A DNA stretch of 64,000 nt from positions 186,001 through 250,000 of the forward strand of contig MHAZ01000003.1 of NCBI GenBank assembly GCA_001803165.1. The letters are read 5' to 3'. A program made the position numbers and the translations under genes. Source of the DNA: Stygiobacter sp. RIFOXYC2_FULL_38_25. GTDB taxonomy: Bacteria; Bacteroidota; Ignavibacteria; Ignavibacteriales; Melioribacteraceae. The notes under the pieces are model-generated. The model saw only the letters and a list, made by a program, of their open reading frames with translations, made no database searches and had not been told where the DNA came from. Shown one piece after another: positions 51,479 to 51,862 of the stretch (position 1 is its first letter; the number at the start of each line of letters is the position of its first letter).

Positions 51479-51510
51479 TGTCGGGGTGGGGAGATTCGAA
51501 CTCCCGACCT
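51479..51510. repeat. 32-bp direct repeat, left copy (tRNA-Pro 3' end)
   Basis: Identical to 51786-51817. It covers the tRNA 3' end, acceptor strand and T arm plus two bases beyond the discriminator, and together the copies bracket the GIY-YIG frame. Confidence 0.85.
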
Positions 51511-51537
51511 TGGCGCCAAAGCGCCACGCGCTAACCG
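51481..51537 (-). pseudogene. 5'-truncated, decayed tRNA-Pro
   Basis: The 3' 57 bases of a tRNA-Pro: D-loop remnant CGGTTAGCGCG, an anticodon arm, variable loop, T arm and acceptor 3' strand. The last 31 bases, from the T arm on, are identical to the intact tRNA-Pro at 51788. The acceptor 5' strand and D arm are missing, and the anticodon arm has become TGGCG-CTTTGG-CGCCA (a six-base loop) instead of a seven-base loop. It looks like a relic of the UGG isoacceptor. Confidence 0.8.
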
Positions 51538-51782
51538 TTTTTCTCATTATCAGAAAGAAATCTACTTGCTCCTCTATTCTTAATGTTAATTTCAAAACGA
51601 TATGCTTCTGATTTCGAATCGGACTCCTTCGCATAAACTAATTCCCAAGGAGAGCCAATCTTTGTAGATTTATTTTGACCGGAATTATGTTCAGTTAATC
51701 TACGAGAAATATTGTTTGTGTGACCGACATAATATTTATTCTTTTTGACACTAAACAGAATATTTGTTGTGTAACAATTCAT
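51531..51782 (-). CDS. GIY-YIG nuclease-fold protein between two tRNA-Pro sequences
   Basis: 83 residues. The single-domain GIY-YIG family (UPF0213/Slx1-like) is seen in KYYVGHTNNISRRLTEHNSG, then SPWELVYAKESDSKSEAYRF and IKNRGASRFL. YVG, the Arg of SRRL, the His of EHN and the Glu of AYRFE are kept, but the first motif reads TNIL where Tyr is expected (usually YIL), one base from a Tyr codon. ATG begins five bases after the 3' end of tRNA-Pro and the TAG stop lies inside the D-loop remnant of the decayed tRNA-Pro. No ribosome-binding site other than tRNA sequence is available. A homing or mobile origin is inferred; activity is doubtful. Confidence 0.75.
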   Translation of the reverse strand: MNCYTTNILFSVKKNKYYVGHTNNISRRLTEHNSGQNKSTKIGSPWELVYAKESDSKSEAYRFEINIKNRGASRFLSDNEKNG

Positions 51783-51785
51783 AAT

Positions 51786-51817
51786 TGTCGGGGTGGGGAG
51801 ATTCGAACTCCCGACCT
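51786..51817. repeat. 32-bp direct repeat, right copy (within tRNA-Pro)
   Basis: Identical to 51479-51510; the part inside the intact tRNA gene spans T arm and acceptor 3' strand. Confidence 0.85.
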
Positions 51818-51862
51818 CTTCGTCCCGAACGAAGCGCGCTAACCGGGCTGCGCTACACCCCG
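51788..51862 (-). tRNA. tRNA-Pro (anticodon CGG)
   Basis: A 75-base cloverleaf on the minus strand. Acceptor CGGGGTG / CACCCCG, D arm GCGC-AGCCCGGTTA-GCGC, anticodon arm CTTCG-TTCGGGA-CGAAG, T arm GGGAG-TTCGAAT-CTCCC, discriminator A, no encoded CCA. It reads CCG. The GIY-YIG frame starts in its 3' trailer. Confidence 0.96.

Follow-up and report, generated by a model that had tools for sequence, protein, structure and literature searches.

A small GIY-YIG nuclease gene lying between an intact tRNA-Pro gene and a truncated copy of it is probably part of a mobile selfish element, a cassette of about 300 bp that would combine one such gene with a piece of its target tRNA gene and would rebuild that tRNA gene. 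Related loci occur in both mirror-image forms, with the ORF following or preceding the tRNA; their ORF lineages keep to particular tRNA isotypes, filled and empty alleles both exist, units are repeated in arrays, the ORF is mostly under strong purifying selection and the stems of the associated hairpins have changed on both sides. These observations point to a widespread, apparently undescribed selfish element that is present in several bacterial phyla beside many kinds of tRNA.

Architecture of the locus

The locus lies in a 64-kb stretch of DNA (hereafter the window) and reads, on the minus strand, as tRNA-Pro(CGG), GIY-YIG ORF and truncated tRNA copy (dtRNA). Its parts are as follows:

51787..51862, minus strand: intact tRNA-Pro(CGG), read here as the rebuilt target gene (ARAGORN; Rfam RF00005, 66.2 bits)
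51531..51782, minus strand: ORF for a predicted GIY-YIG nuclease of 83 aa (PF01541, E=1.9e-16)
51480..51537, minus strand: 5'-truncated tRNA-Pro copy (dtRNA) with tRNA positions 18-28 and 46-76 (chain matching)
51511..51526, minus strand: hairpin TGGCGC-TTTG-GCGCCA replacing the anticodon arm (chain matching; 6-bp hairpin on ssDNA folding)
51786..51817, no strand assigned: 32-bp direct repeat, copy in the intact tRNA (sequence comparison)
51479..51510, no strand assigned: 32-bp direct repeat, copy in the truncated tRNA (sequence comparison)

The original prediction had placed the start of the frame five bases after the 3' end of the tRNA, derived its stop codon from the D loop of the truncated tRNA and bracketed it with a 32-bp repeat. 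All three are borne out: the tRNA ends at 51787 and the ORF begins at 51782, the D-loop sequence of the dtRNA (CGGTTAGCGCG) contains the stop TAG (51533-51531), and the two copies of the repeat match perfectly. The second tRNA is indeed truncated at its 5' end as had been proposed, but simple decay does not describe it, since a hairpin occupies the place of the anticodon arm. Chain matching at this locus shows that the 17-nt anticodon arm has been exchanged for a 16-nt perfect hairpin (51526-51511), and the pattern TGGCGC-N2to6-GCGCCA occurs once in the window against an expectation of 0.01. Thus, the architecture first described stands, while the anticodon-arm hairpin, the mirror form with the ORF ahead of the tRNA and the breadth of the family had been overlooked. 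We also considered whether the dtRNA had arisen by decay of a tRNA-Pro(TGG) isoacceptor, and dropped this reading because hairpins recur at the place of the anticodon arm in the relatives. The ORF scores 60.6 bits against PF01541 (cut-off 22.6). No group I intron RNA was detected around it, Rfam at gathering scores returning only tRNAs in the window, and the same search recovered no intron RNA in 15 other loci.

Nine PF01541 matches are present in the source genome. Five small ones adjoin an intact tRNA, namely Asn (L001), Ser-CGA (L002), Pro (L003, the window locus), Ser-GGA (L005) and Ser-GCT (L006), and a sixth (L009) is flanked on both sides by truncated copies of tRNA-Asp. Two others, L007 and L008, are long frames, and these and L004 have no tRNA within the 3.2 kb fetched. 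L005 and L006 are mirror images of the window locus, with a 5' tRNA fragment followed by the ORF and then the intact tRNA. The genome has 44 tRNA matches in 4.4 Mb, and therefore, by our arithmetic, a random position would fall within 220 nt of a tRNA in about 0.4% of cases. The tRNA-Asn cassette is followed by a 104-bp repeat (99%; positions 1438-1541 and 1780-1883 of L001) of the tRNA end, terminator and ORF start, which is a partial second unit. The tRNA-Ser(CGA) and tRNA-Ser(GGA) cassettes, on opposite strands (G000:C7, about 159000-161100), have their 3' tails swapped, as if an inversion had run through the element repeats. The idea that palindromes of this type are confined to the element was rejected: TCCCGA-N4-TCGGGA is found at 7 places in the source genome, against 0 for the reversed control.

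Association with tRNA genes across bacteria

We assembled 170 distinct loci from protein searches (185 minus 15 duplicates), a set made up mostly of top-scoring matches, with 60 loci and 16 stretches hand-picked from the matches (two 200-base stretches among the latter being unused), and hence not a random sample. It excludes the loci from tRNA-directed DNA searches (L010-L038, L174-L193 and L239-L268) and the long frames L007 and L008. A tRNA gene lies within 300 nt of the ORF in 147 of these loci and is on the same strand as the ORF in all 147, while the density of 44 tRNAs in 4.4 Mb predicts about one adjacent locus by chance. The enrichment of GIY-YIG frames beside tRNAs that had been anticipated from the window is thus present. 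The order is tRNA-ORF in 111 and ORF-tRNA in 36 of the adjacent loci; they involve 15 isotypes, in a tally that counts as Ser one locus (L136) called as a Ser-GGA tRNA and really a hairpin-bearing pseudo-tRNA-Pro, and the median gap is 28 nt. An earlier tally of 96 loci had given 81 adjacent to a tRNA, with 81 on the same strand.

Inspection by eye of the 23 non-adjacent loci revealed truncated tRNA copies or tails in 16 (L009, L040, L046, L050, L056, L074, L085, L086, L116, L120, L129, L143, L152, L157, L171 and L210) and ORFs in protein genes in five (L112, L113, L117, L118 and L236). The other two are L004, which resembles a different GIY-YIG protein, and L207, which fits neither group.

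Related ORFs are found in 54 of 57 genomes of the family that were searched. Among loci in named genomes recovered by the protein pattern alone, 40 of 45 (7 of which repeat family loci) are tRNA-adjacent, all on the same strand. By record titles, the hosts include Ignavibacteria, Melioribacter and Bacteroidetes (Aquimarina, Salinimicrobium, Winogradskyella, Pedobacter and Paludibacter), as well as Patescibacteria groups, Acidobacteria, Methylomirabilota, Armatimonadetes and Phycisphaerales/Sedimentisphaerales. Across a sample of phyla, a match at 1e-10 was present in 188 of 296 genomes, and 25 of the 28 loci fetched from this sample (4 duplicating earlier ones) were tRNA-adjacent, again always on the same strand.

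The nuclease and its fidelity to tRNA isotypes

An alignment of 28 sequences revealed that Y18, G20, R28, H32 and E64 are invariant and that Y7 is retained in at least 90%; the conserved tyrosine, glycine, arginine and glutamate are residues of the GIY-YIG active site. From the domain match and these residues the ORF is predicted to belong to the GIY-YIG nuclease superfamily. The protein comprises little more than the catalytic domain, and by sequence profile its nearest solved structures are UPF0213 proteins and SLX1 (PDB: 1zg2, 1ywl and 7cq2 among them; 2.3e-14, 3.1e-13 and 2.8e-7). The ORF is under mostly strong purifying selection: dN/dS is 0.18 between the window and the G002 copy and mostly 0.05-0.3 where defined, with values of 0.5-1 in a few near-identical array copies and saturation in many distant pairs.

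Mapping tRNA isotype onto a tree of 89 ORFs (one per locus) required 17 changes, against 52-61 in 200 label shuffles, whereas genus required 66 against 64-73, which is no signal; the tree rests on 86 alignment columns, has many weak forks and includes one ORF (L032, the twin of L136) labelled Ser and placed among the Pro ORFs. Therefore, each ORF lineage is tied to one tRNA, which shows target fidelity. Such fidelity is by itself no proof of transfer because a cassette inherited vertically at its locus since long ago would give a similar picture.

The truncated copy and its hairpins

In 78 of 90 loci and in 32 of the 40 named tRNA-adjacent loci, part of the adjoining tRNA (score of at least 15) is repeated beyond the other end of the ORF, so that the nuclease ORF there sits between the putatively rebuilt gene and a displaced end copy; the 90 loci include some from tRNA-directed searches but not L005. 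Matching against a tRNA of another isotype instead gave such a copy in 6 of the 90, and a convincing copy was absent in 12. The positions of the hairpins in the dtRNA are recurrent and mostly isotype-specific:

Pro, Val, Lys, Gly: anticodon arm
Asp: T arm (anticodon arm in the Methylomirabilota locus L154)
Asn: T loop or anticodon region
Cys: anticodon loop to T loop
5'-type Ser, Arg: D loop
Glu: T loop
3'-type Ser: T loop and anticodon loop

The T-loop hairpins of Glu and 3'-type Ser often consist of two 11-nt mini-hairpins. The unique inserts of 10-60 nt number 107; folding reaches z < -2 relative to single-base shuffles in 80 of them, and 59 fold no worse than any of 100 shuffles. We then compared the two arms of the stems directly. 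The Pro hairpins (n=12) display two-sided changes at 3 of 6 pairs, with Watson-Crick pairing in 71 of 72 cells, and hairpins from other tRNAs (n=10) at 6 of 6 pairs, with 60 of 60 cells Watson-Crick. Two-sided changes were also seen in Cys (3/6 pairs), Asp (1/6), Asn (1/7) and the mini-hairpins (3/4). When the arms were slid by one position as a control, 21-60% of cells paired. As the hairpins were chosen by hand as hairpins, the share of paired cells partly reflects that selection, and the two-sided changes are the informative part.

An RNA-level hairpin was considered and set aside because G-U pairs are not in excess. A set of 34 single hairpins (15-21 nt), pre-filtered for at least 70% Watson-Crick pairs, contains 223 Watson-Crick, 0 G-U, 3 A-C and 4 other cells. 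A looser set of 47 hairpins, which includes 22-mers, has 303 Watson-Crick, 13 G-U, 11 A-C and 15 other cells. The lack of G-U cells in the 34 points to DNA palindromes rather than RNA stems, a pattern that recent formation of the hairpins could also give. The twin loci L032 and L136 in G014 show a full-length tRNA-Pro shape with a hairpin as its anticodon arm, followed by the ORF and by a dtRNA bearing the identical hairpin; no intact tRNA-Pro is present in the stretch fetched for them.

Arrays and filled and empty alleles

Several genomes display tandem units. After tRNA-Asp in G048 there are five 315-bp units, three of them identical, each comprising a hairpin, a 17-nt tRNA tail, a terminator and the ORF, whose stop is inside the hairpin TCCCGACTAGTCGGGA. 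In G381, tRNA-Pro(TGG) is followed by five units of 350 bp, of which three are identical and a fourth deviates at one base, and G035 has three 317-bp units before tRNA-Pro. In L086 (G019), tandem units of dtRNA and terminator lacking the ORF follow tRNA-Ser beside one ORF-bearing unit; these are possibly non-autonomous.

Within one genus, 30 tRNA-Pro(TGG) loci were fetched, and of the 23 with the tRNA, 8 are filled and the other 15 empty. The filled locus of G142 and the empty one of G453 form the closest pair; their flanks are 87-90% identical and they differ by about 358 bp, corresponding to the ORF, the dtRNA and one terminator; the tRNA segment of the empty locus is also inverted. Likewise, 6 of 18 tRNA-Pro(CGG) loci from the window's relatives are filled and 12 empty, two further fetched loci being without such a tRNA. 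At a Gly-Cys cluster of another genus, an empty (G072) and a filled (G088) locus have a common upstream spacer, and by eye the terminator in filled G071 and G074 stands after the dtRNA rather than after the tRNA. At pyrR, pairs with an empty site from the genus of the window are rearranged and give no clean boundary. The filled/empty polymorphism could in part reflect loss; a locus in G396 (L241) has a tRNA-Pro followed by a repeat of the tRNA tail and terminator with no ORF, possibly an excision or deletion scar.

We considered two rival readings. The original prediction had itself offered a decayed tandem tRNA pair as an alternative, which is not supported; two intact tandem tRNA-Pro genes occur in 0 of the 18 tRNA-Pro(CGG) loci. 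A wider version, in which vertically inherited tandem tRNA duplications trapped a GIY-YIG gene and are now decaying, would draw on the resemblance of the truncated copies to tRNA remnants and on the ability of slippage to produce direct repeats; it is strongly disfavoured, with only a sliver of probability left to it, by the same-strand placement at 147 of 147 loci, the recurrent hairpin positions and two-sided stem changes, the low dN/dS, the two mirror forms and the empty sister alleles. Alternatively, the unit might serve the host, as a nuclease cotranscribed with the tRNA and acting in defence or tRNA quality control, with the dtRNA as a regulatory RNA or decoy. Strict co-orientation at a median gap of 28 nt and an ORF mostly under purifying selection would suit such a module, but its patchy presence within one genus, its spread over 15 isotypes and in arrays, the 0 G-U pairs in 34 hairpins and the related ORFs that interrupt protein genes or duplicate their ends make it improbable. 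The minimal cassette bracketed by tRNA copies, as first proposed for the window, is by comparison strongly supported as a class by enrichment beside tRNAs, empty and filled alleles, recurrent boundaries and arrays.

How the cassette might move

Under the proposed mobile cassette, the unit would enter a tRNA gene and the piece that it carries would restore the gene on one side of the ORF, while the displaced original piece would remain across the ORF with a hairpin in, or in place of, one of its loops. Every form that we observed can be derived by placing, where the hairpin lies, a unit that makes the tRNA whole again on one side. We infer that the unit moves by way of nuclease-made breaks that start homologous recombination, which would insert or copy it into cognate tRNA genes and build the arrays. 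A specific insertion site is evident in the isotype-following lineages and the recurrent hairpin positions. The recombination between attL/attR-like repeats suggested by the original prediction finds no support, as the unit has no integrase. Its further idea, that the tRNA promoter and trailer might serve the frame as its mRNA, is likewise unsupported. A tblastn search of a phage collection with the window ORF gave no match, plasmids gave two weak partial matches and viral contigs one 17-residue match; as the phage records contain no close relative and the plasmid and viral-contig matches are weak or very short, no known vehicle emerges.

In classical homing, the nuclease would cut an empty tRNA gene at the loop in which the dtRNA bears its hairpin, gap repair from a filled chromosome would copy the cassette, and the hairpin would make the displaced copy uncuttable. 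ORF lineages that track isotype and hairpin positions that are mostly isotype-specific would agree with this, as would the fungal mobile ORFs and SegB discussed below, which are reported to cut DNA and use homologous recombination. We searched one genus for a protective change in the rebuilt tRNA and found none: for 8 of 8 filled tRNA-Pro(TGG) loci, the identical tRNA sequence is present among the 15 empty loci. The cassette therefore does not protect the rebuilt tRNA, which would remain a target, and this weighs against simple target-destroying homing; if the recognition site lies within the tRNA gene, insertion does not remove it from the carrier, and self-cutting would need another brake. 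The protein, moreover, scarcely exceeds its catalytic domain. Homing at the tRNA, as originally envisaged, is thus unsupported by the unchanged tRNA of filled loci, and we regard the classical scheme as rather unlikely, if the main rival to what follows.

The hairpins and the UPF0213/SLX1-like nuclease together suggest that the hairpin itself may be the substrate, as branched DNA, and hence the cut site, a proposal we hold tentatively and at somewhat less than even odds. The nuclease would open hairpin-bearing DNA and the tRNA homology would guide recombination. Since the rebuilt tRNA is unprotected and the nuclease is minimal and SLX1-like, this hairpin opening is weakly favoured over classical homing.

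Related ORFs in protein genes

One clade of ORFs (A4; SH-aLRT 99) is inserted in protein genes and bracketed by inverted repeats, which have exact arms of 9-14 nt in four copies and, by eye, only imperfect ones in L118. The L118 insert interrupts a PF05635 gene precisely where profile position 47 meets position 48. The gene hosting L117 matches SLFN_AlbA_2 before the insert and HATPase_c_4 after it; the host genes of L112 and L113 have no Pfam match and presumably resemble RAYT transposases, judging by motif. L236 (G295), assigned to A4 by eye, repeats the rebuilding design seen at tRNAs: 14 codons from the 5' end of a sugar-nucleotide dehydratase gene (rmlB-like) come first, then a hairpin at the junction, the ORF and finally the complete gene.

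With more reserve still, we suggest a new class of mobile element built on a single small nuclease, which would be structure-specific and would attack a DNA hairpin maintained by the element; tRNA homology would guide entry and the displaced piece would become a hairpin-bearing pseudo-tRNA, with related units acting likewise in conserved protein genes. If the cassette is what it appears to be, many small GIY-YIG genes of Bacteroidota, Ignavibacteria and several other phyla belong to chromosomal mobile elements of very small size, which inhabit genes that are among the most conserved in the cell and yet leave them intact. This would help to explain why tRNAs occur in truncated form, why tandem repeats accompany tRNAs and why contigs break at these repeats, and would offer a testable pairing of nuclease and DNA hairpin kept together across phyla.

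Comparison with known systems

The open-access literature, which leaves most subscription papers outside its scope, yielded no description of a bacterial tRNA-rebuilding cassette. Integrase-bearing elements with attachment sites in tRNA genes rebuild the tRNA end and leave a displaced copy on the far side. The present unit differs from such islands in that its 315-350 bp hold a GIY-YIG ORF only, with no integrase, and in that its displaced copy bears a hairpin. SLX1, a structure-specific nuclease by its PDB name, is longer than the cassette ORF, and we know of neither UPF0213 nor SLX1 as part of a mobile element. Double-hairpin elements of fungal mitochondrial DNA place two adjacent hairpins in loops of RNA genes; the likeness lies in these hairpins in RNA-gene loops, and the term was not found in the open-access literature searched.

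In T-even phages, SegB is a free-standing GIY-YIG nuclease encoded beside tRNA genes, and nuclease-dependent tandem amplification of the tRNA and nuclease genes proceeds through homologous recombination (PMC13096335). The cassette resembles it in the tRNA-linked GIY-YIG gene and the tandem arrays; SegB is, however, phage-borne, and a rebuilt tRNA end with a hairpin-bearing truncated copy was not found in the available part of its description (PMC13096335). Fungal mitochondrial mobile-ORF (mORF) elements reside in atp6, atp9, cox2 and nad3 and mostly encode LAGLIDADG nucleases, the atp9 case being GIY-YIG; the endonuclease ORF enters a conserved gene and supplies a copy of its end that restores it, and the native end is displaced downstream (PMC3630166). 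The word 'hairpin' is absent from that paper. In both systems, a nuclease ORF lies between a rebuilt gene and its displaced end (PMC3630166); mORFs occupy mitochondrial protein genes, whereas the bacterial cassettes occupy tRNA genes as units of about 300 bp, in both mirror forms and with a displaced copy remodelled by a hairpin.
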